64,000 nucleotides of DNA, from NCBI GenBank assembly GCA_009869945.1, contig WIXG01000013.1, positions 248,001-312,000 of the forward strand, read 5' to 3'. The translations under genes were made by a program, and so were the position numbers. This document shows, piece by piece, positions 1 to 64,000 of this stretch (its first letter is position 1; each line of letters opens with the position of its first letter). Below the pieces are notes generated by a model. It searched no databases. It was not told the origin of the DNA and saw nothing but the letters and a program-made list of their open reading frames with translations. This DNA is from Mesaphorura yosii. Its lineage: Eukaryota; Arthropoda; Collembola; Poduromorpha; Tullbergiidae.

Positions 1-3000
1 AAGAGTGCTATTATTCATTCCTTATTTAGGTCATCTTGTGTCCATGTCCACGGTAGTCTGTCTAAACAGTATCCCAGTACACGTGTGAACAACAGCACTT
101 GTTCTCTGTCCATGGCCAGGAGACACGCGAGATGAGATAACAAGCGACGCGACGCAGTTTGGTCGGAATATCGATTAAATTGCCGCTAATTGAAATCAAA
201 CGTCTCTGCTGCTAAATGATGTCATATGCAGTGTTAACTTACATACAGATTCGATCACATCATAACAATGTAAGCACATGGTGAATAAGACATTGAGGAA
301 AATTGAAAAATTTCATTACGCATCGCAAATCAAGAAGACGTGTCCTAAAAAGAAGGTTTTCGCGAGATTAATACTAGAAATTACTTTGATTCCGTTTTGC
401 ACTCTCAATCATCGTCTCTTCTGGTCTTAAAAAGGATATCCTAAAAGGAAAAAATGCCAACGCATCCAAGAAGTAATTTATTTGCGTATTAATTACACTC
501 CTTGTTTGCTCGTGCAAAGGTTACTTCCCCCAGCCTTTGGAGCGCGTACAGTTTCTGAGGAAAGAGTTCAAGTATCATTCTTCAACTGCTACGGCTTGGC
601 GTACAGTGCAAGTGCTCCAAGACAAGAACCACTCATCGACTCATCATGATTAATTTTTTGTGGGGCGTAGTTTCTCGCATTGCATTGCATCATGCTGTCT
701 CATCTTCACCACCACAAAAATATTAAATAAAACCCATTTGTCTGAAGTGCGTCTTACGCACAATGAAAACACAAAACTCGTTCAACCTTTCTTCAGCTAC
801 CTGCCTCACGCCTGGTTTTGATCTTGCTCTCAGGTGTCTGTATAACTTTCGTCATCACTCGATCATCTTCGCCTTGATCCCAAAATAAAATCTTAACTTA
901 TTCCATTTCCATTGTTGGATTGTGGTAGATGAAATCGCAATCACACTTAGGTCATGAGTAAGCACCTACGCGCTGCACTGGCGGAGGTTATTAATTAAAA
1001 TATTGAATAATTCATCAATTTCAATTCTGATGCTTCCAACAATTGACACCTTTGTCTCTGTCCCGCTCTTTGCATGACCTTGGTCTCTATTCTATTTTAA
1101 TGAATGCCAACGATTGCTTCTGGGATCACGGGCTATAATTAATTATTGACCACTTCAAAATTCAATTGTCTCACATGCCATTGCTTATCTGACTCTTTTT
1201 ACTGCCGTTTGGCAGTGTGGAGATGCTCTACTTGACCTTTGCACAGTACTCTTGATTCGTGCCTTATTTCCTCGACCTCCGAGGTCTATTTCATGAAAAA
1301 TGGAGCGCATGTAACCTGCAATCACACATGAACGTGATCCAATTTAAGCAAGTGCAAGCTCGTCAGTGTCCGCAATTGCAGCCAATTTATGAACTCGAAG
1401 AAGAGGTGTGGAAAGTCACGAACAAAGAATGTACCAAGAAATTAATATCATTTCATTTCTGTCATTCAAATTTATTGCTTTACTTCATGCGTTACATGAG
1501 AACGCGAGGGCGAGAACAGTGATGAACGAGTGCAGACTTCCTCAAATTCGAAGGTAATTTGCGAATGATGAATGGAGTTCGTTAGATTTCCGAATTTTAC
1601 AAATTACAGCAGCGTATCACGGACTTCGTGTTGTCCTTCTGAAGTGAAACCAAATCATTAGCTTTTGCAGAGCAAGGGCAGCAAAGGAAGTGACAATTTG
1701 ACCACAGATTCACAGAAGCTAATAAGTTAAATGGCAATGAGATGATTCGTGAGTGATCTTCAACTTCATCTCTAATTTCGTTGTTCTGGCTTGAGGCTTC
1801 TACGAAAATGATGTGCTGATGGGCATTTCGAAGAATTGCGAACAATGCAATGGGGATTGGCGACGATTAGACTCATTTTCCTGAGTCAATTGTTTTTTTT
1901 TTTACTAAAATTGACCAATTCCTTGGGCTGAAGGAAATGGAATTGGCGTGATTTCCGTCTCAGGCTCAAGAAATACTAAACATTTTATGCGCACCATGAT
2001 ACGGAATTTCCATTGCGAATTTTTAGGTTATGAAATTAAAAATTTTACGATCTGCCAAAATACTCGAAGGCGATAACGCCGGCAATAACAAGAGCCTGTG
2101 TTTTAATGTGTATTACGTAATTCTAGGCGATTATGATCAGAAATGGGATCAAGAGTACCAATGATCACCTGCGTGGGCAACAATAATAAACGACTGGCCA
2201 TCGGTCCTCTTTTGATGGCGTGTCCCGCTGAGTCTGCCTGTCATCCCTCACAATCGTCCTGCTTGAAACCTGGTGTGATTTGGCATGGGTCTCTTTTGTA
2301 CGTTTTTCTCGATTTGCCCCGCTTATTAATCAACCGGACAAACAGGGCCGTTGTTGACTGAAATCGCTGTCGGGACAAATACGCGTGAAATTGGTAGACA
2401 ATAGAAAAGGAATTATCACCTTCTTCAACCTGGCATGGAGTCCACCTGCTGCAGAATGCAGTCAGGCCTTTCTTTCTTCCCAAATTCACTTTCCGTATTT
2501 ACGTTACGCCGCGTTGCGTTACTTTTTTGTGATATTTGCACAGCCCGCAGTGATTTTGCGCTATTGTTCAGACATGTTGCGATAACGCGTCCACGTCATA
2601 ATGCAAAACATGAAAATATTTTATGTAATTCTCGAATTATTTGTTAAGCCCGTACAATAATCAAAGGTGAACAAAATTTGATGAAAAAATGATCGAGGCT
2701 GATAACCCGATCATCGCAATGGAAAGAAATTGAAGATTGTTGCAACTCCCGTCATCTCACAAGTCATCCCAAAAAATAAGTCACATTTCATAAGCAGCTG
2801 AGCAAAACTGAGTAGCTTACTCAATATGTTGATACATATTTAAGCGCACTGTTGCACTGCCTGATTGTATTGTATTCACAACAGAATTTTCAATCAATGT
2901 CTCTTGGCAATTCGCCATTCACGCCTTCGTTAACAAGCCGCGACGAGTGCGGACGTTCTGAAAATGAATGCCATCCTAATGAGGGCCACAACAATAGTCA

Positions 3001-6000
3001 GTACACTGCCTACTGAATAAATCGGTGAGGTGAACAGATTGGCAAATTAAAGAGATCGGCTTCAGGAAATTAGAGAGTTCGAGCCGGTATGAACCCACAC
3101 GTAGCAGTTCGCTTAAATTCTGTGAAAAAGCAGGTCTAGCTGATGAAATATTGCTGAAGTGCTCCATTTTGTCTCAAAACAGAAAACAGGCACGCAATCT
3201 GAATGAAAACAGCAAAACCCGCTTGCACTACCATTGTAATTGACTTTGCATTAATAAAATTAGCGCGTCTTTATCGTTCTGTCAATCTTAATTGAGTTGT
3301 AACAATTTACAACCTAAAAGTGTTCCCACACGTCATATGAAGCCAGGTAGTCAACCCGTGATGGGCATTTTTGAATGAATGCAACTTCTGAATTACAAGG
3401 TGTATTTGAACAAGATTCAAACCACTTAAAAGGCGTCCACTGCTCCATAATTAATGTAGAATGTAGACACGTCAGAACTCACGCCGGCGCGATTCGCAAT
3501 TATACCATCTTCATGTAAGTAATTGAAATGTACACCACTCTTAAATGAAGTTAGAAGCGTTTTTGACCAGCTAGGAAAATATTGCATAAAAGTGACTTTA
3601 CTTTTAGAGAGACATTTGAGGCCTGATTTTGCTGGCAGTCTTTCTCTGCGAGTCTCGCTGTGAACTTAAAAACGAGATAATAATCATGTATGACTAATCG
3701 CGAAGTAAATAAAAAGTAGGCCCAATTAGTATCAACATTTTTTCGCACAATTCATCACCGCATGTGCACGCTGGGATGACATCAGTGCGGTCTTCGTGGT
3801 TGCTGAGTCCACAATGCACTGTGACGTATCTCGCAACACTTTTATGGGAACAGAAATCCGCTCTCATCGTTTTTCATTCCTCTTGATACCGTCTAAAGTC
3901 AAGTCTGCGACTTTTCAGCGTAATAAAACCATAAAAACTGCAATCAATCAAATGCGAGTAAAATCGTATTTCGAAAACCGCTTGCTGGCTAGGCTGACCT
4001 TTACAATGCAATTTTTTTCGCATTCGCACTGGCCCAGATTTAATTTTAAGGTCAAGCCTTGTGTTAGTCTTGACATTACATAATCCTATCCTCGTCGTGA
4101 TTCGTGAGCGGCTGCGCTTGTGAGCTTGACATGATCCGATTTGTAGTCCATCATCCAGTTCAGTTCAGAGCCTGTTTTAGTGTAACAATTCAATTTAATG
4201 CATGTTAAGTGGATTATGCTCAACACGTGTTAATGCTTCTGCTGTTTTGTGACGGGTTGTCAATAAAATGCTGACTATTGCATCATACGACATGGTGCCT
4301 TCGCTTGTGTTAATGGCTTGATTCCATCAATCACGACGCGTTGTATGATTGTGATTTTGTGCTTTGGTTCTTCCACCCTGACATTCTTGCATTAATCTTC
4401 TGGCTAGTATTTAAGAAGAAATCATGACTGTTATGTTTTGAAATTGAGCTGTGGCACATCGAAAATGGTTTTATCGTGTTCTCGCGTACGCCGTCGCATG
4501 AATACGAATTTGATGCTCTGCGGCATCATCTTCAATTAATGACTCGACAAATTAATCGTATCACTATCCATTAGAGCGTACTGTACAAGTACGTGTTCAT
4601 CATTCGCCAGTTTGCAGCCACTAATTGCATTTTGAATTTGGCTGTGCCAGTGACCTTCATTTTGCCTTCTTGCGTTTGTGGAAGAAGAGTCGAGGAGCAA
4701 CTGCTGCACTGTAATTATCATTAAGATGCATGCTGATCTGATGTGTTTTCTTGAAAATGTTTCACATACATCAAATTAATTAATTTATTCATTTTTAAGT
4801 ATCAATTTATCGATACAATGTATCGACACTCGCTCGTCTGTAATTTACATTACTTTCGCATGCATTGCATTTGCATTGCGTATTCCGTATTTACCAGCGA
4901 GCAATTAATTAAGAGATAACCTCATCCAAGGAGCGTAAGGGTTTTGGAGCATACATCATAATTACTTTACAATGACCTTACGCCACACTGCTGTTTGATG
5001 AGGCCAAGACCAAAATCAAACCAAATCAGACGACGAAGAAAAAGAAGCAGAAGTGCCACAAGACACGGCCTGAATCAGAATCAGAATTCCAATTCCTATT
5101 CATCATTAGGTGTGGTGATGGATGGCTTGATAATTGACAACTTTATTACTGTTACTGGCATGCACGGGAGCCAAAAGGCAAAAACTCATCGAAGATGCGA
5201 TCAAAGTCAAGAGAGTAGCTGCAGATGCGTCGGATCATTAATATTCTCCGTCCACACACACTCAATTATGAATCGCGTCCATTGTTCGCTTATGCTGTAA
5301 TGGCTGGTGTCAAAATTATAATTCAATTTGTTTCGAGATGGTTGATGGTTGATGATCGTGTCGTGATCGGTGATTCGTAACCACTCAATGAACTTCGCAG
5401 TTGTTCGCCTGTTTCACTGTGCTGCGCTGCCTTGAATGATTTGGCATTTGGCATAAAATATTTTCATGCTTGATTGGTCATCCAAGTTGAATAGAATTAC
5501 CATTACAGGATTACTGGCAAAGTCACCTTTGCAATGGATCTCTTTCTAATAACAGTGTAAAGGTAAAGATGCGTTTCTATTTATAGCCATAGAGCAAATG
5601 TTCAAGACTTGCTGCAATATGAAATGCATTTGGTGACCGTACAATTGCTGACTGAGTCCAATTTACTTCTCAATTGCGAATTGCCAAATTCTGACGATTG
5701 ATCACAAATAAAATGAGTCGACCGCGAAATGGTGAAATTCACAGTTTCACAGTCGCCAGCTTTAAGCTTTGAAATGGCTGAATTTATTTCGTAATCCGCA
5801 GCCCAGTTTTGCTCTGTGTAACTTTGCTAATCTCATTGTTATTGTTACTTTGACCCTACGAGTGAACCGTTTCTGTTCAGCATTGAAAGCGCGTTCTTGA
5901 GTTTTTGTAATGAGTATTTGAACCACAAAAATTGGCAATCGGAGGCGGATCGAAATGAATTGGGAGCATCGAATTTTTAAAGTTGTCAAAATGACACGGC

Positions 6001-9000
6001 TTGTAACACCTTTTACTACAAAACTCAGATCTTGTGGGCTTGAGAAAATGGGCAATTAGCACAAAAATGGATGAGCAAGGTGAAGAATCATCAATTATAC
6101 AGACACTTCTTAATTTACTCCAAATTCCACTTGCATTTGAGCTTGAAGTGGAGTGGATGAGTTTCAAAAATAATTAACAATTCAAGACGCAGTTCGGTTC
6201 AGTTGTTGCGCAATGAGGCAGATTTCAGGTTGCAAATTAAAAATATGGATAGATGATGACTATTAAATTTTTATTAGCTTCGTTTACGATGTTACTTTCC
6301 ACCTTGGGACCCAAACCGACCTAACGGGAACAGATGCGCATGATGATTGCATTTTTCTGGTGATCTTAGCCTGCGAGCCAGGTTTTACGGCCTCTCGCAA
6401 TTTCATGAATTGAGATCTCTTCGCCGGCAAGGAGATCAATCTTTACAGACACTAAAATAAATGTAGGGCACTCTCACCTTCGTCATGTTCCTCACGCAAG
6501 AGCGCATAAAATTCCAAAATTAATTAAGCGCAGAGATCAGCGAAGAATTCTTTCCTTAATGATAAATGTCCCATTTCAATTTCAATACTCTGGCCATTAA
6601 CCCATTTAGATTTGCATTGTCAGAGGTCCCGATTGCGATTGCAATGCAGCAGAATGACAGAATGTTCTGAACTCATTCTCACGCTTTTAATCCCGTGCCG
6701 TGCCTTCTGTCCTGTGTCCTTTGGTCACTGTTCGTGACTCGAGTGCCCTTGCTGCCTCGCTCACCACGCACATGATCCGTGTCATAATTGAGGAATCTTC
6801 TCAGAATTATCGTATTCACGCCCTAATGACAATATTCTCATCTCATTCTGCGTTCTCGGTAATAACTGCCCAAAATAAGAGCTAGGACATCATTTCGTAA
6901 GCAGTGTCGAATGTCGGAATCATTTGTGGATTGCATAAGTCATTAGCTGAAGCAAATTTAAAAAATTTAAACCCATAAACCAGATCCATGATAATTGCTT
7001 TGCGTCGATAAACCAAGTGCTGTACCAGCACCATGTTGGTAGTATTTTAGTGAGTTACATCACCCTCGCACGACGATGCGTGCAGCTGTATGTGAACTTT
7101 AACCACACCTCTCCTTTTTCGGGTCTACGCAGAGGAATTTGATTATGATTGCCTGTTTGGCAATCTTATTCTAATCTTGCATTATGGGTTAGTAACAAAC
7201 TCTCACAAATTCCACGCTTAATTAAAGACCTCAATTCCAGATTTAATTTCGTCACACCCAGCGTAATACCAATAAACCTAACTACGAGGAAATGGAAATG
7301 AAGTGAATCATCAATAAGCCTTGGGATTGAGATTTGTGCCATTTCACTTTTGAATTGCTACTCATCTCTTTTCAGACTTCAGAGGATATGCTTTGCCTGG
7401 GTAATTTGAGACACGTTTGGCACGTTCCGCTAATAAAAGTATGCAATTTTAGCATAAACGTGGAATTCTCAAACTAACTGCTTAATTGTGCTGTGCTGAA
7501 TGAATGGATTGCATAAAGCCGGCTAAGTTCCCTCGCGTGAGTAATTATTAAGTGCATTGTACTGCATTACAAGAATTCAAAACTGCAAGAAACTTATTAA
7601 AGGACGGATTTTATGACAATGCAATTCCGGCTTATCTGACTGTCAGTGATGCTCTGAATGATGATTGCAATGATTGACACGATTTGAGACTTGAGACCAG
7701 ATTAAAATCTGAACTCTTGCACCAGCGAACCAAGTCGGTCACTCCGTCGACATATTTTGGCGCATTGCATTGTTGGGGGAATCTTGCGAAAGAAGTAAGC
7801 CGAAAGTGAATTCTACAGCATTCTCTACAGATCTTTAGCACCGATTGCGATCTATAACTCCCATTTCATGTGCAATTCCGAAGGAGGGTCGACGCCGCAC
7901 TGCGTGGCGCATCAACCGGCGCATTGAGAGCAGATTCAAACAATGAGATTATGCCTTGAACTTGGTGATGCAATAATCAGCCACGATTTGCAAGTTAGTG
8001 CAATTTGGGGTTTATAATTTCTTCCGGATACACCACTTTTGATTTTTATACACAGCACATTGGGCTGAAGTACAGCGACCCGTGATTATTCTTGATTCTT
8101 CAGTAATTGCAGTTGAATTGTCTTCAAAGGCTTGCATCATGCTGGCGATGCCGGTACGAATCAAAATTACGTATCGCGTCTTACTTTCAAGTGCAGTGCA
8201 GCGTGAATAGGATTTTGTAGAACTCCTCACAAGCCATTCCGAAAGCGGGTTCCCTTTCAGAGTGCCAGCTTGATCAAAAGTCGTCTAAAGCATAAAATAT
8301 TCGTCCACACATCGCAATCATACAATTTTAGTTACGATTTCCTTGTATACTACTTAGTGCTTGTTCTCTCTAATTAGTTGGCTTCATAAATATGATGAAC
8401 CTCTAAGAGCGATAGAAATATTTCGACTGTGCGACGATAAGCGACGCCTGCTTATCCTGTACTTCCGTTGTCCGGTTCAATCCCAATGGGCAATGGTGCA
8501 GTATTGAAGTGCCACAAGATGAACACAATAAGAAATAGATGTCTTAATTTCACAATACACACAGTCTTAACTGTTTAGACGATGAATTGCTTGACATTTA
8601 TGGGTGAAATTGAATTGTGTAATCGGCTGATAGCCTTTAGCATGGTTTTACAGCACTGACTTTGCTGAAGGAATACATGTTTGAGATTTCTCCCCAGTAT
8701 GAGCACCAAACCCGAAGGCTGGAGTGTGGGGCAGAGTGAGACTTTGCGGGACGGTTGCCGTTGAAGAACATTGGAACTCTGCTCTTGGCTTTTCGAATGC
8801 ATTAGTCTGCAATTAGCGGGGATTACATTCTCACACTGTAAGCTTGCAGTATTAAAATTAGCCTGTAAGTAAAATCCCCAATTAATGCTCGGATTACATA
8901 ATCAGGCTTGTAATTGAATACTCGAGACTAGCCTTTCATTCCTTTCTTTGTGTCATCGCCGAGTTCCTTAATCATTGTCATTATTGCCAGATTACGAGTA

Positions 9001-11126
9001 CTGCTACTGCATTTATACGCAGATTTTAGATTGCAGTGCAAAATGCAAAGACTTCGAGCCTGAGCGGCACCTGAGTTACGTGGATTACATTTGATTGATT
9101 CAAAATGGCGCCGCTCTGAGCTCTGAGCATAATGAATCAGACGCTGAACGCTGCATTGTTATTAGCTTCACCGTCACCGTGATTAGCATTGCGGCAATAA
9201 ATAAAGATAATGACACAGTACGGGACGCCAATTCGAGCAAGCATGCAATGTGCAATGCAGTGCAATGCTGGGGAGCTGTCATTTTATGGTCAAATACGTG
9301 CGCATGAAGAAATAGACCAATTATAAACGAATTAGATCATTTCACGGTTGACGGCTGTGGTCAGTTCGCATCCAAGCGCACACTCGTGCGCACACACAAG
9401 CGGCGATTTTGATTGCGAGGATGATTATGGCTCCCTTCACATATGACATAATTCTTTGGTGACCAGCGACGAGCAGCGTTCAGAAGATGTTCGACCACAA
9501 GCCCATGCCATGCCGGGCCTTATGAAACATTCTCAGAATAAATTTAGTGCAGTATTATTCTGAGATTAGCAGCCGAGAAGGAGAAGCCGAGATCGATGAC
9601 ACATCATCAAAACCAAATTTATGACTCGGCTCTCGATAAAGATAAAGCAGCCGCTTCACGTCACGTCGTCGTTTCGAGTTTAATTCGGATTACATCACAA
9701 TGACGTAAGACGTGAGACATGCTACATGCGGAAATCAGCAACCAGTTATTTTTAACCAAAATTACGATTACAATTACGACGTGGTGGCATTCGGCGGCGG
9801 TCAGCATATGTGATGCGATTCTGATGGTTGCTGTACAAACAAATGTGGACAAATTGCCGCCGTTGCTAAATACAATGAACACGATGACGGAGGTAATCAG
9901 TTTGGGTTACACAAGCGTGAGGATGAAGATGAAGACCAGAAGAGACGGCAGTTGTTTTACATTGAGGTTTTAATGATGTCTCTGTTGGACTGTCAACATA
10001 CCATTTGTTTTAATGAAGACGCGGACGCTTTCCGTCTACATGCGGTATACTCGTTTGTCGTCCTTTCTCTCAAATTCCAACCTGCATTGCGAGCAGCAGC
10101 GGCTAATTAATTGTGGGAAGATCACTGATCAATGAGAAATGAATTTTTAATTCCTGGTTGCAATTGTAGCCAATAGGCAGCTGGCGGCACGGAAGACGAG
10201 CCACAGACGATGACGAGGAAGTCTGACGCTCTGCTTGATTAATTGTGATTGATATGCCAGCGATCTTCGTTCAAGAGCGCGGTCCGCACCTGCCCTTGCC
10301 CATTGTTCTCCGAGTGTCAGTTCAAGATTAAGATAATCAGTCTAATCACACGTTATGGATTGCATTTCCCGCCTGCCCACTCGAAAGTCACATCTCCTCT
10401 GCTGGCCATCGTCTGCCGTCTACTCTATTAATTCTCGAGGTCAACGAAGATGATTTGAATCTTTCATCTTCATCATCTCACATCTCGCCATTAAAAATTC
10501 AATTACTTATCCTAATTGTTGTAAACTTGCAAGCAAACTCAAAAATTACGATAATAATAATGAAGAGAAGAGCCGTACAAGTAATTATTGAGGGCAGGAT
10601 CTCAAGGCGCCGATTTTAATGCCTTCTTGGTCTTGTACGCGATGCATATTAAATTAGCCGCAATTTCTTCCCATTTTTCTCTCGGCCTTTCCGTAATCAA
10701 GTTGAGGATTAATGCTGAAGGAAAAGATCCAATTGTTAAATGCTTTTACTACGTGCCAGTGCCACAGTGCCAAATGCACCACGACGCACGCATGCAAGCT
10801 CGGCTCGACTCATGATCCATGTAGTCATGAAATATATGAACTCGCCGTGAATTTTGACGTGGTGACTACTCCCATCATCATATGATGATCACCACGTCTG
10901 GGCTGTAACCAGCAGCAACAGTGGCAGCCGCCGCCGTACTGTTGCACTGGCGCATTCTTGGTATGCGAATAATTATGGAATTGGGAGATTCGTGGCCAAG
11001 AAAGCAAAGGCACTGTGTTATTTTAAGACCCACACCCTCATCAGCATCAGCAGGCTCGGTAACGGTAATCAATTGCCTCCCTTGCCTCGCCTTGTCTGTA
11101 TGCATTCGTCCTCAGATCCCAATCGG
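1..11126. other. Gene-free intergenic region (11 kb)
   Basis: I see no convincing gene on either strand. Open frames are short (about 100 codons or less), lack flanking splice sites that join into a longer frame, and have no recognisable domain. The DNA is AT-rich, with many TTAATTA-like and GCATTGCA-like words but no long tandem array and no terminal inverted repeats. It lies upstream of a cuticle gene, so distal regulatory DNA is possible but not shown by the sequence. Confidence 0.6.
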
Positions 11127-11166
11127 TATAAAAATCCAAGACACGACGATCTTAAACCATCAGTTG
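11127..11166 (+). promoter_or_regulatory. TATA box and TCAGT initiator of the pro-resilin-like gene
   Basis: TATAAAAA starts at 11127 and the arthropod initiator-like TCAGTTG at 11160, a 33-nt spacing that fits a TATA-driven start near 11161. This leaves a 5' leader of about 255 nt before the ATG at 11416. The second cuticle gene, at 43.1 kb, has the same pair of elements. Confidence 0.7.
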
Positions 11167-11415
11167 TTGGATCCTCATCCTGAGTTCAGTACACACCAGC
11201 CGCAGCACTTTACTTCACGTACACCTTTCCGCTGCCACGATTATATAACATCTTGAGTTCATTCATTCACCAGTCTCACTTTCACATAAAAGTTCTCACA
11301 AGAAAAGTACAACTCAACTTATTCGCTCTTCGTGCTTGTTTCACTTTCAGTACACCTGTGATCTAGACCTGTGATACATCGCTCGTGCTGAGCAAGCATT
11401 CGGAATCAAGCCACC

Positions 11416-13190
11416 ATGATCTTTAAGGTTCCACACTTTGTTTCTTGAGACGCTGGACAAATTGACACTTAGTTTGATTCGACAGTGAAAGTGTCACCTG
11501 ACAAGCTGTATTCAAGTGTAAAGTGACTCTTCGGTGTGCTGGGCTCGGACTCGAACTCCTACCTCATAACGCGACAAATCTGAAGTGGATTCGATCTGCA
11601 GAACTTCTAATTTCGAATATTTTGTCTTTTCTTCGCAGGCAATTTGTCTTCTCGCTCTAGCTCTGGCAGTTAGAGCTGAGCCACCGCCACCGTCCAACTT
11701 TGGAGGCTCATTCGGATCTCCGCTCTCATCGTACGGCCCACCAGGCCGTAACGGAAACGGAGGATCCCAATCCTACAACGCTCCACCGTCTCAGAACTAT
11801 GGTGCACCAAGCCAAGGAGGTCAATCAGCGTACAACGCACCTCCCCCAGCGCCGCCAAGCTCATCGTACGGCGGTCCGCAATCATTCAACAACGGAGGAG
11901 GCAGCTACAACGCCCCACAGCAAGGAGGTGGTTCTGGTTCATACCAGAACGGCGGAGGGCACCAACAGCAACAGAGCAGCTATAACGCCCCTCAACAAGG
12001 CAACCAGGGATATAATTACCAGGCGCCACAAGGTAATCAAGGAGGTTACAACGCTCCGCAAGGTAACCAGGGAGGGTACAACGCTCCACAAGGCAACCAG
12101 GGAGGATACAACGCCCCACAACAGAACGGTGGTTACTCCGACTCTGGCAGCCAGGGAGGACATGGCGGATATGGCCAGGTTAGCGAAGAACAATTAAGTC
12201 AAGTGTAGGATTTGAGACTCATGCAAGTGCCAGAGAGCCAAAACGCTCATTTCTTTCGATTCCGTTTCGTATTTTTAATTTCTTGCATCTTACGTAACGT
12301 AGGAGGCTCCAATGCCATACAACTTCGCATACGCGGTGAAAGACAACTACGGAAACGATTACAATCGCGAAGAGACCAGCGATGGCAATGTTGTCAACGG
12401 GCAATACCGCGTCCTGCTTCCCGATGGTCGCACCCAAATCGTCCGCTACACAGCTGACTGGCAGAATGGTTTCAACGCTCAGGTAACGTATGAAGGTGAG
12501 GCCAAGTACCCAGAGCCAAACAACGGTGGATACGGAGCTTCAGGACCACAGTCTTCAGGATACGGTGCTCCAAGCGGACCTCAACAACAATCATACGGAC
12601 CACCACCTCAACAACCTCAGCAATCGTACGGACCACCGCCTTCCTCTAACTATGGAGCTCCATCAGGTGCCACTCCAGTGCGATCTGCCCCACCTCAGCA
12701 GAACTACGGACCTCCATCAGGCCCATCGTACAACGCTCCTCCACAGCAGTCGTATGGTGCTCCTCAGCAATCATCCTACAACGCTCCGCAGCAGTCGTCT
12801 TACAATGCCCCACCTCCACAAAACAACTACGGGCCTCCATCCTCAAACTATGGAGCTCCATCAACTCAGGTGGCCGCGTATAGCAACGGAAATGGAAATG
12901 GCAACGGCCACAGCAACCAGGGTAGCTACTCCAGCGGTGGTAAGAGTGGAGGTGGTAACGGGGGTGGCAACTTTGCCACCTCGTACAGCAACCAGTCTGG
13001 GTCTGGACCAAGCTCAAACGGGTACAACAGCAACAGCAGCCCAGCTCAGTCCTACTCACCCGCTCCGAGCCAGTCGTACGGGAGCCCAGCCTCCAACAAC
13101 GGCTACTCGGGTGGCAACGGCGGGTTTGGCCAGCGCGTAGGTCAGAGAAACAGCAGTAGCTCATCGGGCAGCTACGGTAGGAGAAAGTAA
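11416..13190 (+). CDS. Pro-resilin-like cuticle protein (R&R chitin-binding)
   Basis: Predicted exons are 11416-11427, 11639-12178 and 12303-13190 (479 aa). The ATG sits in a near-ideal AGCCACCATG context. Exon 1 codes only MIFK and the intron splits the signal peptide, as is common in arthropod cuticle genes; cleavage is likely after AVRA (residue 17). Residues 18-184 are Gly/Tyr/Asn/Gln/Pro-rich with GGYNAPQGNQ repeats. Residues about 185-255 form an R&R domain (Chitin_bind_4) containing LLPDGRTQIVRYTADW. Residues 256-479 are a second elastic-type region with SYGAP, NYGPPSG and SYNAPQ motifs. Repeats, R&R, repeats is the layout of insect resilin, in which tyrosines form di-/trityrosine cross-links and the R&R domain binds chitin. 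It is inferred to be an extracellular cuticle elastomer. Intron 2 follows GGCCAG|GTTAGC and keeps phase 0. Another glycine-rich R&R protein would be the alternative to true resilin. Confidence 0.9.
12029..12118 (+). repeat. 30-nt coding tandem repeat, three units
   Basis: Three adjoining 30-nt units (12029-12058, 12059-12088, 12089-12118) each encode QGNQGGYNAP. The differences are mostly third-position changes. Degenerate partial copies flank them on both sides. The units lie in the N-terminal repeat region of the pro-resilin-like protein and look like recent in-frame duplications. Confidence 0.85.
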
Positions 13191-49200: not shown

Positions 49201-52163
49201 TATTACACACGTACACGCTTGACATGGTCGGGTGTTGCAGCAATTTATCAAAAACTTCACAATTTAATTAAGAGTATTTCTCAAGAAAAGTGAAGAGGCT
49301 TTTGGGTTCAGTTCGCAGGCGCAGGAATCGGCTCAACAGCTTAACACCTTGCGTAAGAGTAAACTCGAACTTAAAGCGTCAGTCGTCCGTCGATGAGGCA
49401 ATCCTAATTCCAAAAGTCAAGTGCATGCTTATGCGATGCGTTTGATTAAAGTAATTTGTCCTTAACAGTTGGTTAAATTATTGACATTTATATTTTATGT
49501 AACTGGGCATTGCATTTTGCAACAACGGAGCGTCTTCCTCCTGCTGCGTGCCGTATTTCTCGTTTAGTCCCGGCCTAACGCCATGTCCAATTACTTACTG
49601 CTCGTCGTTCGTGATGTTTGTAAGAAAGATGTCAAACCTATTGAGACAACGACCATCATCACGATGACCGATTCCGTGTAATTGTTTCGCCTATGTTGAA
49701 CAATTATACTTGTGATACAGCAACGAGCCGAGCATGCGAAGCGTGATGATGTGCATGATGGTTGTGGTATATTTGGCGGTGTCAATGTGCAAAGAAGTCA
49801 GACAGTTAGCAGCAGTCACTGCAATGCAACGCAACCCTCCGAAGTGAAGATGGCAAATGCCAACAGATGATGGCATAATAGCCGCTGCTCATTATAAAAT
49901 CATCATCCGCGCACAACATTGTTGCGTGGCCACGTTGTGTTGGTTGCTATTCTCTTCTCCACTTGCATCCAATTATTTATTCACACACCTCGTCGCTGGT
50001 TTGGCATTTTATGTTATAATTGTTTAACAAGAAAAAAGTTGCCATCATAAATTATGCGATTCTTTCTCTCACTCGCACTGGTGCGCGTTGCACTCGAACG
50101 TGAGTTTTACTTATTATGGACTTGCATTTTTAAATACTTGGCTTGGTTTGGCCTTATTCGAGCCAGCCGGCTGAATGGCGAATAGTAAATGAGTGTTTTG
50201 CATGTTGTATTGTGCTTGTATTGCTTTGTTACACGTTTGTTTCTCAATGCACATCAAAAAGCGAGCGAAGATGAGCAATTTGGCCCCTTCCCATTCATCC
50301 CTCGCCAGACTATTACATATATGTCGTTACTATCCTCATTACGTTTTAATTAATAATCTGAACGATGAAAATGTGCGGTGGCTGTTTGCTTTCAGAGGTC
50401 TGGTTCCATTTCATAAGTAAATATTAGGTAGAGATGATGAAAGACGCGATGATTTGGTAGAAAGTCGGCAGACTCGTTAATTTAGCATTGAAATTGCGTT
50501 GCCGGTCGCATGATTACATTCAGTCTCGTCTCGTGTTTGTCGCCTGATTTGTGCATAGACTTAAATTCAAATTCACTCATCTCTCTCAAGGCAGCTAGAT
50601 TGTTGTACTCACGACTGTCGGTATTACGGACTTTGACGACACGATTTTCATGCGTAGGATGATCGGTGGGTCTTTGGCAAGCTCCGTCTGAAAAGTGACC
50701 AAAGTCACGAAAGCCTCTTTGTGTCCTTATCTTTACTCGCCATTCATCTCATTTAAGCCAAGAAGGATGCGTCCATGTTTCTTACGTATCATAACACAAA
50801 AGTATGATTTCAGCTTATGTAATCTACGCTTTTAGTGCTGTGATGACCAAATTGCGACACATTCGTATGCAACCACATAAAATCAGCTGAATTCATGCCA
50901 ATTCTTGTATTCAGAGTTACATCTCGTTCAGTCATCAAAAACCCAACTAATAAGCTGAAACAAAAGAAATTAAGACGAGTAAATTGCTGATTTGCATAAG
51001 TTGGCGTTTTTGTTTGAAAAGTGGTTCCAAATTCCAAACGATTGAAGCAATTCAATTAATCTACGAATGCAACTCAGTTGCGTCTTGTGTGCGAATGATT
51101 CTAGCGGAGAAAAATCTGCAGCTATATTTCTTTGCCTTTACCTTGTTTAATTTATTACTCTTTTCCTGCTTTGTTTTTGTACACTTGCTCATCTTCACTT
51201 CTTTGTTTCTTGTCCCATTAGCCTGATGGTGAACACGAACCTGGAATGCCGTACGACTTCACGTACGCCGTGAAGGATGATTATGGCAATGACTTCTCGC
51301 ACAGCGCCGAGAGTGACGGCGAAGTGGTCAAGGGAGAGTACAAGACTCTGCTGCCTGATGGGCGCACGCAAATCGTGCGATACACTGCCGACTGGAAGAA
51401 CGGTTACAATGCGGAGGTCACGTACGAGGGTGAAGCCGTGTACCCGGAAGAACCAGTCAGGCCACAACCAACTCGCCCACCACCACCAACTCAGCCACCA
51501 CGCAGAAACCCGTACGAAACTGATGAACAGATTGACTCGCAAGGACTGTACCCTTCAACCACCCGTGCCCCGTACGTTCCACCAACCACCACCCGCCCTC
51601 CGTATGTCCCACCACCAACGACACGTCCCCCTTACGTGCCACCGACTACCTACAGAACTACAAGGCCACCAACTTACAGAACCACAACTCTTCCTCCATA
51701 CAGGTAAGAAAATTATCGCCCCGTGTTTACCTTCGGGATTTTTTTTCCTGTTCTTGTACTAACTCACTAACTGGTAACTGGTCTCACTTTTCTTTCTCTT
51801 CTCTTTCACTCTCTCCATCACAGACCGCCAGAGACAACCCGGTATGTACCTCCTCCACCACCCCCAACTTACAGGACTACCACGCTTCCTCCATACAGGT
51901 AAATTAACATGCCCTTCTTCCCCTGCCTATCCTCACCTCAACCGACTCGATCCAGAGCCGCGGCGAAAGTGAATTCGATTGAATCCTAACCTTTTCGCGC
52001 GTGTACACGTTTATGTATTTTCAGGCCACCAACCACATACAGGACAACCACTCGTCCACCACCGCCAAGAACTACCCAGCCACCAACTGAGCCTCCAGGT
52101 CTCTACGGAGCTCCATCCCTCCCGTACGGCGTGAGAAACAACCCCAAATTCGGCTACGCATAG
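43291..52163 (+). CDS. Pro/Thr-rich R&R cuticle protein
   Basis: Predicted exons are 43291-43296, 43509-43748, 51222-51703, 51824-51898 and 52025-52163 (313 aa); all junctions are GT-AG and frames close. Exon 1 codes only MK. The signal peptide MKVGTSLLVLLMAVAVSRA is likely cleaved before QYNYQ. Residues 20-82 are Pro/Tyr-rich with a polyproline run. Exon 3 carries the R&R domain (residues about 91-158: MPYDFTYAVKDDYG... LLPDGRTQIVRYTADW ...VTYEGEAVYPE). Residues 160-313 are repeats of PPTTRPPYVPP and TYRTT..PPYR. About 50 of 68 R&R residues match the gene at 11.4 kb. Known role of the domain: binding chitin in the extracellular cuticle. Exons 3 and 4 end in near-identical sequence (TYRTTTLPPYR and then a donor), which suggests exon duplication. 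Whether it is resilin-like or a stiffer Pro-rich cuticular protein cannot be told. Confidence 0.9.
43749..51221 (+). other. 7.5-kb intron of the Pro-rich cuticle gene
   Basis: The donor AAT|GTAAGT and the acceptor TCCCATTAG|CCTGAT bound this phase-0 intron, far longer than the others in the window (under 250 nt). It holds no convincing nested gene. Minus-strand frames at 46219-46695 (158 codons) and 45411-45851 (146 codons) have no domain and are near chance length. A CAGTCAGC-type tandem tract lies at 48402-48433. Confidence 0.8.
48402..48433. repeat. Short CAGTCAGC tandem tract
   Basis: About four imperfect copies of an 8-nt GCCAGTCA-type unit run in tandem inside the long cuticle-gene intron. 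This is a minor satellite-like tract. Confidence 0.6.
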
Positions 52164-55778: not shown

Positions 55779-58293
55779 ATGAAAATCCCGCACACGATTC
55801 CGAAGCTGATTCTCCGGGCTTACGCTCATAAGCAAACGCCTGAGAAGTTAGCAGCGCAGTACGAAGGTCGTGTGCTCCGTGCCGAAGATCTCACTTGGGA
55901 TGAAGGTATTTTCGACATTGGTTTCGTGAAAGAGCTGGCCAAGCAAAGCCTGCAGCTCATCATCGACGACTACCCTTTCTACGTCAAGCTGGTCAATGAG
56001 TGGAATCGCATTGGTGAGATTGAGCATGGGAAAGCGCATGAGAAATGGGAGGTGGACAGAGAAATCTACCTTCAGAAGAAGGAGTCGTACGATGAGAAGT
56101 AGGAATAGCAATGTTGAATAATTTGACCTTATGAAACTGATTAATTGATATATGTCTGCAGGCTTCAGGAGTTGGATCTCATGATCGAAAGATTCGGTCG
56201 CAATGTGGGACAACTGGAAGACATGATGAATACTGAGTCGAACTCTTCATCTGACAACAGCGATGATAACAGCGATGAGTTCCGAAGACTGAAGAATTTG
56301 ACCGAACCACCTTATGTTCCGGAAGAATTTTCAATTTTTGTTCCACTACCTACCGTGCTGGACCAGCTGGACGATACTGATCGCATACATGTGATTGAGG
56401 AGCTGGATTTTGAAACTATTCCGCTCGACCTGGCAATCGCAACCATCCCGGATGAGTATTACTGGGAAAGAGTTTGTGAGGACCGTTGGCCAGTGAGTTT
56501 ACACTTTCTATTAGCTAATAGCATTCGCTCGCTGTGTATTCACATATTTAACACTCTAATCTAATAACTGGCCAGCAGGAATCCGACACGTACCATCATG
56601 GCTACAGTTGGAAGCGCATGTTCATGGAAAGGCACGTGCGCGAAGCTATTGAGGCATTTCATCCAGCCGAAAGTGAATGGCCACCACTTCTCGAGCTGAT
56701 TGAATTGTGTGCGTCGTCCGTGATCACACTGACTCTTTATCATTTGATTCCGGAGTGCTGGGGTGTCCCAAGAAAGCCCGTCGTTCAGCCTATGTTTGAT
56801 GGGTATTGATTTGTTTGAAGATTTCTGTTCTTTCCAATTGCAATGGCTGATGGGTCTATAATGCGATCTTCGGACTTGGTTTTTGTCCAGTGATGAGCCA
56901 CCACCTCTTGACGTAGCGACACTCAAGTTTACTCCAGAGGATGAGGGCTTTCAGGAGTCTGCATTTATTGCGCATTTCCAAGAAAAGCAGGCGGAACGGA
57001 AAGAAAAGTTGGCACATGCAAGGAAAAAGTTCCAGGAAGAAGGTCGTGAGGGTGAACTAACCGAGGAAGAAATGCTGGCGGAAGAAGAAGCTGCAGAGGA
57101 GGAGGCGAAACAGCCCCGCACCAACTCGCATCTGAACTTATGCCTAGTCATACCAAAATTGACTAAGCTCACAAAACTCTGTATAGTTTATGAAATGGCT
57201 GAGATGGGCGAAAATTGGGAGCCAAGATTCTTTGAGTTTACAACACAAGATTGTGAAGGGTTGGCTAAAGCCCTGGCCGAGACGCCGACAATAAACCATC
57301 TGGAACTGAATCGGAGCCGCATGAATGGAGAGCAGACCAAAGTGCTGGTTCGTGACGGGCTCCTGCTAATGCCACATTTAAAAGTGCTGAATCTGAATTA
57401 CAACAGCATGGGCCCTTCAGGTAGTTCCACCGGAAGCAATTGGCGCAACAAGAAAAACTGAAAGAGTCTTACATATTGATCCGTGTACAGGAGCTTTGGC
57501 TATTGGACGATTGATTACGGATACGAGTTCTCGAGTGCGGAGGACGTTACATACGCTAAAGTTGGCACGCAATAATATACGAAGTAAGGGTGCCAAAGCA
57601 ATTGCCTACGCCTTGACTCTGAACACGTACTTGACATTTCTCGACGTTCGTCTGAACCACATTGGAAATTCGGGCGTCAAAGATATGGGGCACGCGCTCG
57701 TCGTCAACAAGTCTCTGCAAAGCTTGAATTTAGCTGCCAACAATTTAGGCGAGCCGGCATGCCTCATTCTTGCAAACATGTTGCACCATAACACAATGCT
57801 CAAAGAGCTCGACTTGAGCTCGAATCCGTTGGGAACCCCAGGTATCTGGTTTGATCAATCTTTTGCTGTCTTCATGAATTAACCTTTCCGGCCATGTTAC
57901 TTAGGTGGCGATGTCATCGCACGAGCTCTGCGTGCTAACAAGACAATTCTCAAACTCGACGTTCGCCTTGCAAATACAGGCCTTGAAATTGAATATGATA
58001 TCGAATCGCATCTGAAGAAGAACCGTAATCGATGTTCTTACTTCTTGGTTGACCGCGAAGATATTTACCCACCTGAAGCCGAAGAAGGTGAGCCAGAAAA
58101 GGAGGAAGAAGAAGGCGAGAAAGAGGAGGGCGAATATGAAGGTGTGACAACATGGAGGGCTGAGAGAAGTGAGAACGAAGACTCTGACCAAGATGATGAT
58201 ATGGCGAACGTTTCCAAGAAGACTTCAATGGCAGGACCCATGGGAGCCGAAGAAGAAGGCGAGGGTGAAGAAGATGTTGAAGAGGATGAATAG
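55779..58293 (+). CDS. DRC5: Dynein regulatory complex subunit 5 (TCTE1 homologue)
   Basis: Predicted exons are 55779-56098, 56162-56492, 56579-56802, 56891-57420, 57491-57841 and 57905-58293 (714 aa). Introns are 63-88 nt, GT-AG and phase-consistent. DRC5/TCTE1 is a leucine-rich-repeat subunit of the nexin-dynein regulatory complex, which links axonemal doublets and controls dynein-driven beating. Family marks seen: YYWERVCEDRWP followed by YSWKRMFMERH (residues about 206-237), the block LCIVYEMAEMGENWEPRFFEFT, RNase-inhibitor-type LRRs over residues about 370-620 (LKLARNNIRSKGA, LDVRLNHIGNSG, LNLAANNLGEP, ELDLSSNPLGTPGG), and the closing ILKLDVRLANTGLEIEY. Human TCTE1 is about 500 aa. This protein adds a charged N-terminal extension (residues 1 to about 180), a coiled-coil-like acidic insert before the LRRs, and a Glu-rich tail (641-714). 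A mini-dynein gene follows on the same strand. Confidence 0.92.
56573..56578 (+). promoter_or_regulatory. NAGNAG tandem splice acceptor in DRC5
   Basis: Exon 3 is preceded by CAGCAG. Using the upstream AG would start the exon at 56576 and insert one Gln between WP and ESD. The downstream AG starts it at 56579. Both keep frame. Confidence 0.5.
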
Positions 58294-58860: not shown

Positions 58861-59213
58861 TAATATCCATGGGAAGATAGCTCGTAGGTCGAACTTGCAA
58901 AGTTTGTGCAAAACAGAGAAGCTTTCCTCTGGTGACGTATGGTTTTCCTAATGAACATCAACTTTAATTATTGAAATATTTTTCAGTTTCGCCCCTTAAG
59001 GGAAGAAGATGCCTTTTCATGCTGATAATTTTGACTTATTAGATGTGATAGAAATAGATCCAGACTAACTCTAATTTCGTAAATATATTGCATTTTAAAA
59101 AAATATTAAAGTTAATGTTCATTAGGAAAACCATAAGTCACCAGAGGAAAACCTCTTTGTTTTGCACAAACTTTGCAAGTTCGACCTACGAGGCTATCTT
59201 CCCATGGATATTA
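58861..59213. repeat. Foldback (MITE-like) inverted repeat
   Basis: The left arm (58861-58968) and right arm (59105-59213) are reverse complements over about 108 bp with roughly seven differences, including one 1-nt indel. They are separated by about 136 bp. The arms start and end TAATATCCATGGGAAG / CTTCCCATGGATATTA. If the outermost TA is a target duplication, the element would resemble a TA-inserting miniature DNA transposon. There is no coding capacity. Transcribed from either strand it would form a long hairpin. I saw no second copy in the window. Confidence 0.85.
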
Positions 59214-60750: not shown

Positions 60751-63547
60751 ATGCTAATTACCTCATCAAAAATGTCACGGTCAAATACGAGAGCTACAGT
60801 TGCGTCAGTAGCGTCAGAGTTGTCAGAGTCAAAAGCGGATGGACTCAGTTCAGCTAGTCGGAGTAGTCGACCGATTAGTGTAGAGGCGTCGTTAGATGCG
60901 AGCACGTTTGCAATCGGCGATAATGGCGAAGAGAAGCAAGGTGTTTTTGTTCCATGGGATCCGATTCTCGAGGGGACGGTCAACACGGAGTACATTCAAC
61001 GGGCCGAACCAGTACTCTTCTCCAAACTGATCAAGAAGAGCAAGACGGAGACCGTAGGCTTTGTGCATACAGAGCTGCAATTCTACACAAAGTTTCTTGG
61101 CGGCCCATACTTTAAGGAGGTAGATCGAATCATCATCTGTATGGGCTTAAGCTGAGCTGATCTTAGTAATTGGTGTCTCACAGGTGCCACTGACTGAGTT
61201 ATCCAAGAAGCCTGGACTTGTTCCAATCAGCAATTTCTTCCATCTCGAGTCGTATCGAGCCCGACGTGACTCGGACGATGATGGGTTGGATGAGGAGGAC
61301 ATCAAAGGTATTTTAAATCATAATGTTTTTGAACTATTTTAATTTAACATGCGGATCCCAGCAATTAAACCAAGAATCAAGCCTATGAACACGAAAAATG
61401 TCGATCGTCATGAATCCAGGTGCCAGTCTTTCATTAAGGAGACCTTAAGTCGAGTTCCTGAGGGTCAAATGTCACAGGTATGGTGAGAGAATTGTTTTAA
61501 AAATTTAAGAAGGATGAAGGTGATCTTATGTTTATTCGATGGGTAACAGACTGACACGATCGAGAGACTTCGTCGAGAGGCTGAGTTGGTGGACGAAGGC
61601 AACGAGCGACTGAAGGATGGGCAAGAACCGGAAATGTTTACGATGAACGACTGCCAGGAAACCGAAATGCTAATGCTCCAAGATGCTCAAGAAGCTGAAT
61701 ATTTTGTAGAATCTGATATGCCAATCTTGCACAAAGCTGGAGAATCTGAGTTGTCAATGCTGATGCTGGGCGATATCCAAGAATCTAAGATATCCATGAG
61801 CGATGTTTGGGAATTTGATATGTCAAGGTTAAAGGGTTTCCGAGAATCTGAAATATCAATGATGACCGGTGTGCGAGAGTCCAAAGTGTCAGTACCGGAA
61901 GCTCGAGAATCGGAATTTGCTGGAGAGTCTGAGATGTCACTGAAGGAGATTCAAGAATCTGACATTTTATTGCTGCTCACTGCTCGAGAATCTGAAATGT
62001 CAATGCTGAACACGGTCCAAGAGTCTGAAATGTCGAACCTGGTCGACGAAGTAGATCACTTCACATTAGAGGTGGCCGATCTTCTGGAGTACGTTGAACT
62101 TGAGCAAGCACCAGAAGTGGCAGCGAAGTATGGAAAACTTGCAGAAGCCCTTGAGCAGCTGGAGGAACAGGATGTGCACTTGAAGGAACGTCAAGGAATA
62201 CCTTCTGAAAAGAACCAGGATTTGGTCCGTCTGCGAAGAGACCTTGAAGCGTTTGAGTATTTGTGGTTGACAGCCAACGGTAAGCCATTGGCTTACCGTT
62301 GCCGTATTTGTGTATTCATGCTTCTTCTACTTAGAGTGGCTACGCATCCGAGAGTTTTCTCTGCAGCTGCGGTTGAGTAAAATCAATGAACAAGAATTCG
62401 CAACCATTGTTTCGGAGGGTGTGAAGGCTATTGACAAAAGTGTGGAATACTTTACTGGATATGAACGTACTGACAATTGACACGTATATATCGATGTCCT
62501 GAAGTATTACCAGAGCCTACATCTGTGCCGACAAAACACTTATTGATTTACTTTAGCTGCGCTTCGCATTGCACGAGAAATACGGCAGGAGATTCTTTCG
62601 TTGGAACCGGTTCTGCCAGTATTAAGAGCTCTGAAGAATCCGGATCTGCGGGAGCGCCATTGGGAAGCGATTTCTGACGTTGTTGGTGTGTGAGGCGTCC
62701 CTCGGATTTTTCAATGCAGGAAAAATTTTGCTCATCGCTCAATGTTGTTCACACAGGTTTCCCGGTCGACCCGAAGGGTACTCAATCTTTTCAAGAATTG
62801 CTTGATGGAGGGGTTGCTAAACACGTCGACACAATCATCGCAATTGTCGAAATTGCTTCAATGGAAGTGGTCATTGAAATAGAACTCGCGAAAATGGACA
62901 AGGAGATGCAAAAGTACACAGTGCAGTTTGGAGAAGACCCGGACTCAAGTAAGTTGTTCATTTTTACAGATGCACGATGCCGCTGAACGTAATGGACATT
63001 AATTATAACAGAAATTACATACATGGCTGTTGGAGACGACGTTCTGGAGCGCCTTGATGTCTGCATTATTAAAATTTCTGAACTCATGCAAGACGAATTC
63101 AGAAAGTATTTCGAGACAAGCCTTGAAGAATGGGAAACAAAACTTAACTTATCACGAGGAAACATCGACGAACTATTGAAATGCCAGAAGCAATGGCTGG
63201 AAATGCAGTCTGCATTGGATGTTGCCACTGTAGCGACTGCTGATCCAAGGCTGGCGAAGGAAAACGACATGCGTCTAAAATTACAACGAGTTTGGGGACG
63301 AATTTTGCGCGTTGGCCGTACAGACTTGCATGTAACAAAAATGACAGAAGATCTTAGCCTCATTTATGATCACTTAATACCTGTTTAAATTAATTTTTAG
63401 ATTCTTGATCTTGGATGTGACCATGCTTTGCCACTCGGCCTCGCACAATTTGCTACCCTTCTCAAGAAAATGCAGAAAATGCTGAACGCAAGATTGAGGC
63501 CTCAGAATTCGGACTCGGACGAAGATATTCAAGCGGCAACCGAATGA
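60751..63547 (+). CDS. Motor-less dynein heavy chain-like protein (stem plus linker)
   Basis: Predicted exons are 60751-61119, 61184-61307, 61362-61477, 61550-62279, 62335-62466, 62557-62685, 62757-62948, 63012-63331 and 63401-63547 (752 aa; 745 if the ATG at 60772 is used). Introns are 54-90 nt and all phases close. Residues 1-203 are unrecognised; 226-368 are an 11-residue repeat array; 370-446 are Glu/Leu-rich, coiled-coil-like, running into LEAFEYLWLTANEWLRIREF. From there to the end it matches the dynein heavy chain linker (DHC_N2): LRALKNPDLRERHWEAISDV, then VGFPVDPKGTQSFQELLDGG, EEWETKLNLSRGNIDEL, KLQRVWGRILRVGRTDLH and LLKKMQKMLNARLR. In dyneins the linker is the power-stroke lever, about 1,200-1,400 residues in and followed by the AAA+ ring. 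Here a stop falls just where FPRFFFLS-type sequence should begin, after a short acidic tail. It probably acts, if at all, as a non-motor axonemal protein. The DRC5 neighbour supports an axonemal setting. Confidence 0.82.
61616..62044 (+). repeat. Degenerate 11-residue (33-nt) coding repeat array
   Basis: Within exon 4 of the dynein-like gene, 143 codons are built from about a dozen degenerate units of the form D-x-Q/R-E-S-E-M-S-M-L-x (for example DGQEPEMFTMN, DCQETEMLMLQ, GFRESEISMMT, ARESEMSMLN, TVQESEMSNLV). Most are 10 or 11 residues. An eleven-residue period fits a hendecad coiled coil. Ordinary dynein stems lack such an array at this point. Confidence 0.85.
62275..62301 (+). promoter_or_regulatory. 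27-bp palindrome over the exon 4 splice donor
   Basis: CAACGGTAAGCCA (62275-62287) and TGGCTTACCGTTG (62289-62301) are perfect reverse complements around a single T. The 5' splice site of intron 4, AACG|GTAAGC, lies inside the left arm. In the pre-mRNA this could fold into a tight hairpin that covers the donor. Confidence 0.8.
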
Positions 63548-64000
63548 GTGATGTCATTGTCATAATCAAGTAATCAACTAGCGCAATGAAACTCGAAACT
63601 CCAGCTTGGTCTGCCTACCCTTTGTTCTAGCGTATTACGTGAAGGTTTTACCACCTCGCAAGTTTCAAAATCTTCTTGTGCTTGCACGAGCCCAAGTCGA
63701 GTGATTGACATGAGACCTTTATCGTTGACCCTTGCTCGTTCGGTTAAATCTTAATCCTCTGTGCATATCGTAATTATTAGAGAGAAGTCGGTTTGTCTGA
63801 AGCAAAAGCAAGTTAACCTTGATCTTTGTCCTGTGATGCACTAAATCCAGTGGTACAAGTGGTGCTGCTTGTACTCTTGATATTTCTTTAATGCCTCTAA
63901 GACAAAGCTTTAAATACCTACTTCACTACATTCCAATAGAAACCTCTGGTACATTTCGACAATTCATATTCTTTCGGGCTGCAAGCAAGTTAAGTAATCA
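63548..64000. other. 3' flank of the dynein-like gene
   Basis: No dynein motor sequence and no new gene are seen in the 453 nt after the stop. There is no canonical AATAAA, so the transcript end is not located. Confidence 0.5.

Follow-up and report, generated by a model that had tools for sequence, protein, structure and literature searches.

Axonemal dynein heavy chains that consist of a tail without a motor are described from Chlamydomonas, where the beta and gamma chains of oda4-s7 and oda2-t lack the motor and yet the arms assemble (PMC12338079, PMC11496786), an outcome attributed in PMC12338079 to the N-terminal segments that are kept. As stated in PMC6249098, the motility of oda4-s7 is much like that of a strain without the outer arm, so a motorless arm need not be useful, and the same source mentions a motor mutant of the I1/f beta chain. 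The genes reported here likewise encode heavy chain tails without a motor, but whereas oda4-s7, oda2-t and the I1/f beta-chain mutant are single-gene laboratory mutants, here five genes of one genome are concerned and further classes are included. According to PMC11949491, mammalian DNAH12 has no microtubule-binding domain, and sperm depend on this chain for recruiting DNAH1 and DNALI1. It is thus also a heavy chain missing part of its motor, and differs from the DNAH12 chain of this genome (contig C211), which has no AAA+ part at all. The mammalian chain retains its AAA+ part. Among the top-ranked results of our searches of the open-licence literature on truncated or motorless chains and on gene losses, none described axonemal heavy chains that are motorless in nature.

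The window is the whole stretch of 64,000 nucleotides analysed here (C13:248001-312000) from the genome of the springtail Mesaphorura yosii (93 Mb, 1127 contigs), and neither it nor the 36 fetched loci contain runs of N. In agreement with the initial annotation, nine exons, joined by hand, read in frame into 752 aa and a stop; all eight introns have GT-AG borders (Table 1). The homologous region carries no pseudogene marks, that is, no stops, frameshifts or lost splice sites, and the 752 codons are open. Exon 9 contains one GT, early in the exon and within GATGTGACC, where none had been noted. With a simple gene finder some of the nine exons were lost or came out too short; it returned only four genes over the window, and made wrong fusions on wide regions (in a first run on C211, and of the neighbouring LRR gene with the window gene); the hand-joined model and a narrow C211 run were used instead. 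Because of the dropped and shortened exons, the exon set represents a hand join guided by homology, with no independent predictor.

Table 1. Features of the window, in window numbering
Feature	Position	Strand	Description
Cuticle-type protein	10712-13190		One of two, by eye
Cuticle-type protein	51246-52163		One of two, by eye
LRR protein gene	56181..58293, start approximate	+	Upstream neighbour, separate; ORFs; Pfam LRR_6 5.8e-24
Inverted repeat, arms	58881-58968 / 59105-59192		88-nt arms, 136 nt spacer
Exon 1	60751..61119	+	ATG 60751, second in-frame ATG 60772; donor GTAGATCG; no dynein match and no known relatives (phmmer vs PDB chains, Pfam)
Exon 2	61184..61307	+	AG before, GT after
Exon 3	61362..61477	+	AG before, GT after
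Exon 4	61550..62279	+	Glu/Ser/Met-rich repeats, then DNAH1-like distal stem begins (TRF; phmmer from residue 349 of 745)
33-nt period repeat in exon 4	61952-62034		TRF
Exon 5	62335..62466	+	Distal stem / linker start; DHC_N2 from residue 423 of 745
Exon 6	62557..62685	+	Linker; DHC_N2 58-103 at 62550-62687
Exon 7	62757..62948	+	Linker; DHC_N2 103-280 over 62756-63352, stops read through
Exon 8	63012..63331	+	Linker; DNA-level DHC_N2 match and splice sites
Exon 9	63401..63547	+	Final kept linker part, acidic tail NSDSDEDIQAATE, TGA 63545-63547

Elsewhere in the window, the LRR protein has a long acidic tail and is possibly axonemal and DRC5-like, as judged by eye. Between the LRR and the dynein gene, the inverted repeat, with arms that are 94% complementary, looks like a MITE-like or foldback element. 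One of the two cuticle-type proteins has resilin-like Gly/Pro/Gln-rich repeats, by eye. Searches with a generic arthropod COI and with the insect odorant receptor family 7tm_6, the latter run with no positive control, gave no match.

Upon searching the window protein against Pfam, the sole domain above cut-off was DHC_N2 (E 7.2e-43, 147.4 bits, cut-off 31.9), matching residues 423-729 of the 745-aa form, which is counted from MSRS, to profile positions 3-305 of 403. The final ~300 residues are dynein linker, as had been proposed; the description of the chain as reduced to its linker, however, goes too far, as about 100 of the 403 linker positions are also gone and the protein is therefore not a whole linker. 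Dynein similarity starts near residue 356 of 752, close to residue ~370, where stem likeness had been thought to begin. Upstream of residue 349 of the 745-aa form, phmmer against PDB chains detected no DNAH1 proximal stem, the part expected to dock on the doublet, and for the ~350 N-terminal residues (window 60751-62100) we found no relatives in PDB chains, Pfam or the organism's own genome. The best PDB match was the DNAH1 chain 9fqr_X1 (phmmer, E 8.5e-40; query 349-732 to chain 939-1322), and three DNAH1-named chains rank first (8.5e-40 to 4.2e-38), with the next heavy chains at 1.2e-26 and worse. We take the 9fqr chains to be bovine, 8glv to be Chlamydomonas and 9e5c to be trypanosomatid; some PDB chains bear names at odds with a dynein (CFAP57, malate dehydrogenase 1B, RSPH9) and were taken as dyneins by their length and match.

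A tree of 10 rows groups the window protein with the 9fqr DNAH1 chain (support 99/97). It sits on the longest branch (3.61; median 1.4), and rows of such length are flagged by the tree tool as hard to place. It is 26.9% identical to the 9fqr DNAH1 chain (379 sites), lower than the protist chain 9e5c_6e, which shows 37.8% (376 sites). The phmmer ranking and the tree, a phylogeny being among the routes suggested earlier for finding the parent dynein class, both lead to DNAH1. Judged from its sequence, the window gene belongs to the DNAH1 class (inner arm d) and stops at linker position 305 of 403. It shares with DNAH1 a distal stem and linker that are collinear over 384 residues, as well as the clade, but differs in being without the AAA+ ring, the C-terminus and the last quarter of the linker, in its unrecognisable proximal stem and in its very long branch. 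The genome searches gave no intact second DNAH1; apart from its own gene, the window protein matches best on contig C298, and that gene is DNAH7.

At the point where the window protein ends, the intact linker of C260 continues with EYLERERSSFPRFYFV. It reads SFPRFYFV after the helix that is kept last in the window protein, which places the cut before the last linker quarter and bears out the earlier statement that the reading ends where an FPRFFFLS-type segment should begin. No match to AAA_6, AAA_8, AAA_9 or Dynein_C was found on the 482-kb contig C13 at E <= 0.001 (a stalk with its microtubule-binding domain would be placed among these AAA domains), tblastn with the motor-locus ORFs against the window and ~17 kb past the stop gave no motor match, and positions 63548..64000 contain no dynein coding that we could find. 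Some 0.6 kb past the TGA, just outside the window, comes a pterin-4a-carbinolamine dehydratase gene (start read by eye at ~64128 of the window numbering; Pfam Pterin_4a 1.3e-31), so there is no room for motor exons. AAA+ exons beyond the window, into which transcripts might have continued, were looked for on the contig by profiles and tblastn and none were found; reading positions 2900-10000 of a fetched 20-kb stretch, together with tblastn over its full length, ruled them out. With the next gene this near, no N runs and no motor match around, the view that the gene has no AAA+ motor and is not a gene-model fragment stands.

Next, the whole genome was searched with the profiles DHC_N2, DHC_N1, AAA_6, AAA_8, AAA_9 and Dynein_C. 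Among the best-scoring candidates, which were the ones assessed, there are at least 12 dynein heavy chain genes, seven with a motor and five without. The motor-bearing genes are C298 (DNAH7), C45 (DNAH3, by a small margin of 437 bits vs 401 for DNAH7), C158 (DNAH5/8), C193 (DNAH6), C12 (DNAH9), C260 and C607/C183, the last two of which we take, by eye, to be cytoplasmic dyneins 1 and 2. C607 (1-9000) reaches the start of its own contig and motor pieces occupy the first 8 kb of C183, from which we infer that the latter continue the C607 gene, so that one cytoplasmic dynein 2-like gene appears to be divided between the ends of two contigs. As a side observation, the C298 and C45 models are 48-55% identical in the linker and the motor start and 84-91% identical in the last part of the motor (~800 residues, C298 model 3601-4400), which points to gene conversion or to a recent common origin of that half.

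The motorless genes comprise, besides the DNAH1-class gene of the window, C211 (DNAH12), C74 (DNAH10), C33 (DNAH5/8) and C16 (DNAH2). C211 matches DNAH12 at 3.3e-77 vs 4.2e-23 for the next chain, is collinear with it (413-862 vs 405-852) and ends about one third into the linker (profile position 147 by protein, 166 by DNA) with the tail ETGQFESGSEE. C74, whose first exons are doubtful, matches DNAH10 (9fqr_K2, 9.6e-90) ahead of an unnamed chain (8glv_Cn, 3.6e-47) and DNAH5 (1.2e-19), covers 1000-1276 of DNAH10 with its residues 400-676, matches up to linker position 93 and ends MEIRFDEEQRS. C33 and C16 have a DHC_N1 match and no DHC_N2 match. For C33 the scores are 8.7e-167 to DNAH5, 3.5e-174 to a longer chain read as DNAH8 and 8.4e-44 to DNAH10, which gives the class DNAH5/8 (150-1202 vs DNAH5 434-1471), and a donor-like GT just ahead of its stop might splice to a different short terminal exon. 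C16 matches DNAH2 at 8.6e-192, a 1-beta chain at 5e-143 and DNAH5 at 1.7e-41 (327-1163 vs DNAH2 388-1229). At all five loci the gene is open and stops somewhere from the stem end to three quarters of the way through the linker, and no motor match follows it. Motor loss is common to the five, and a recognisable tail to the four besides the window gene. These four were modelled with our own gene finder, which is built to avoid stops, so the near-collinear phmmer coverage is the only argument that it skipped no homologous coding. The gene structures are well supported and, with the classes and the absence of motors, are what the analysis shows; we are confident that one genome holds five open heavy chain genes of assignable class that lack a motor.

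Whether the missing motors lie elsewhere can be judged from the profile and tblastn searches. Matches to AAA_6, AAA_8, AAA_9 and Dynein_C fall only in the seven motor-bearing genes, with C607 and C183 counted as one, so the searches turned up no orphan motor. As tblastn queries, ORFs of 60 aa or more taken from the seven motor loci gave four matches at C13, two at C211, none at C74, three at C33 and none at C16, with none to a motor; they fall in the stem or linker, plus one 29-aa match ~7 kb past C211 (to a C193 ORF upstream of the linker), and the control, C298, gave 225 matches. Diverged tails can thus escape tblastn, as the two that returned nothing show; conservation is far higher in motors. 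By eye, the next gene lies within ~1 kb at four of the five loci, whereas at C74 ~4.7 kb of apparently empty sequence is followed by a weakly predicted gene on the opposite strand; the neighbours include genes that we take, by eye, to be ACE-like, bursicon-like and LIM-homeobox. Split genes, in which these tails are trans-spliced to distant motors or joined to them across giant introns, as for kl-3 and kl-5 on the Drosophila Y, would have a precedent in the gigantic introns described for fly sperm dynein genes. Yet all the motors detected are assignable to loci that have a linker of their own (C183 to C607 by the inference above), four motor-domain families return the same set, and at four of the five loci another gene begins so close by; this reading is largely refuted and we hold it to be very improbable. 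An assembly that is in error or incomplete might also have cut the five genes, and it does have 1127 contigs and one motor gene (C607/C183) that seems split at contig ends, but the five loci are internal to contigs that measure 137 to 482 kb, the fetched stretches have no N runs, and each gene has its own stop, so that an artefact of this kind is equally hard to credit.

The reading frame itself bears on whether the genes are decaying. When neutral decay of the window gene's coding sequence was simulated, 0 out of 100 runs were stop-free with 90% of residues kept (mean 5.0 stops), and 0 out of 100 with 47% kept (mean 21.1 stops). The gene is far diverged yet open, in contrast to the neutral runs, which argues for some constraint during much of its divergence, a comparison that cannot speak to the most recent past; its very fast evolution also fits weak constraint. 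For the other four genes the argument for constraint lies in collinear homology, because their frames come from the stop-avoiding finder. Selection on some sperm motors may have been lost, with chance truncation leaving surviving 5' ends as drifting pseudogenes, and both the fast evolution of the window gene (seen in its branch and its identity to DNAH1) and the likeness of five losses, which fits a common relaxation, speak for such relics. The open frame and canonical introns of the window gene, the open models at the other four, the stops that arose in 100 of 100 runs already at 90% retention, and the lack of motor remnants at all five loci by tblastn speak against them, and we consider decay unlikely, if the least so of the alternatives. 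The initial annotation saw in the window gene a domesticated linker. A reading in which this gene alone gained a role outside the axoneme, with its novel N-terminus, accords with ~350 N-terminal residues that match nothing and carry Glu/Ser/Met-rich repeats, and with conservation confined to the distal stem and linker. But the linker too has lost its end, DNAH1 can be named as the parent class, and four more genes lost their motors, two of them having no linker match, and this interpretation now appears improbable.

We instead favour, as fairly probable, a reading in which the tail-only chains hold axonemal slots as force-less scaffolds, a natural motorless DNAH1-class chain being among the five. 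Under this proposal, the AAA+ ring, stalk and C-terminus would have been lost from five heavy chains of the genome; the motorless tails would still be made and enter the sperm axoneme, where they would keep their places in the 96-nm repeat, with light or intermediate chains attached, without producing force, and force would be supplied by the motor-bearing DNAH3, 6, 7, 5/8 and 9. That the genes are expressed, recently selected and at work in sperm is what we infer, and a selected scaffold function in sperm is moderately likely. The scaffold role is least certain for the window gene, because most of the proximal DNAH1 stem is unrecognisable and ~350 residues without recognisable relatives stand in its place. 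Whether both heavy chains of I1/f (DNAH2, DNAH10), the d arm (DNAH1), the arm of DNAH12 and an outer-arm-type chain exist only as 'dummy arms', selected motorless tails that sit in their slots while the motors that are left drive the sperm axoneme, seems to us evenly balanced.

Axonemal genes are kept in the genome, with an RSPH4/6 radial-spoke gene, a family that is testis-only in the fly, and tektin matches above cut-off on six contigs. As given in PMC6367277, the Drosophila DNAH2 and DNAH10 chains are testis-only and DNAH3, 6, 7 and 12 occur in sensory neurons and testis, while for DNAH1 that source gives no Drosophila orthologue and a human function that appears sperm-restricted. The motorless classes are largely those that are sperm-biased in flies or mammals, a pattern recognised post hoc; it is not clean, because Drosophila DNAH12 is also in sensory neurons (as given in PMC6367277) and C33 is not settled as the sperm-type DNAH8. 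Separately, matches to the DNALI1/p28 family (PF10211) occur on seven contigs (C10, C11, C84, C37, C300, C97, C177), some of which may be AXDND1-like, against one DNALI1 gene listed for Drosophila in PMC6367277; light chains of single-headed arms may have expanded where motors were lost.

Surveys that filter by motor domain or by length miss motorless chains; the 2007 survey, as described in PMC2239267, relied on motor models and excluded sequences shorter than 1000 aa. The need for many axonemal arms is usually probed by deleting whole arms, so that tail and motor are lost together. Nature seems to have removed the motors and kept the tails in five genes of one genome and, if the tails are made and docked, the body of the I1/f, d and DNAH12 arms, through docking, regulation and spacing of the repeat, would be worth keeping without force.
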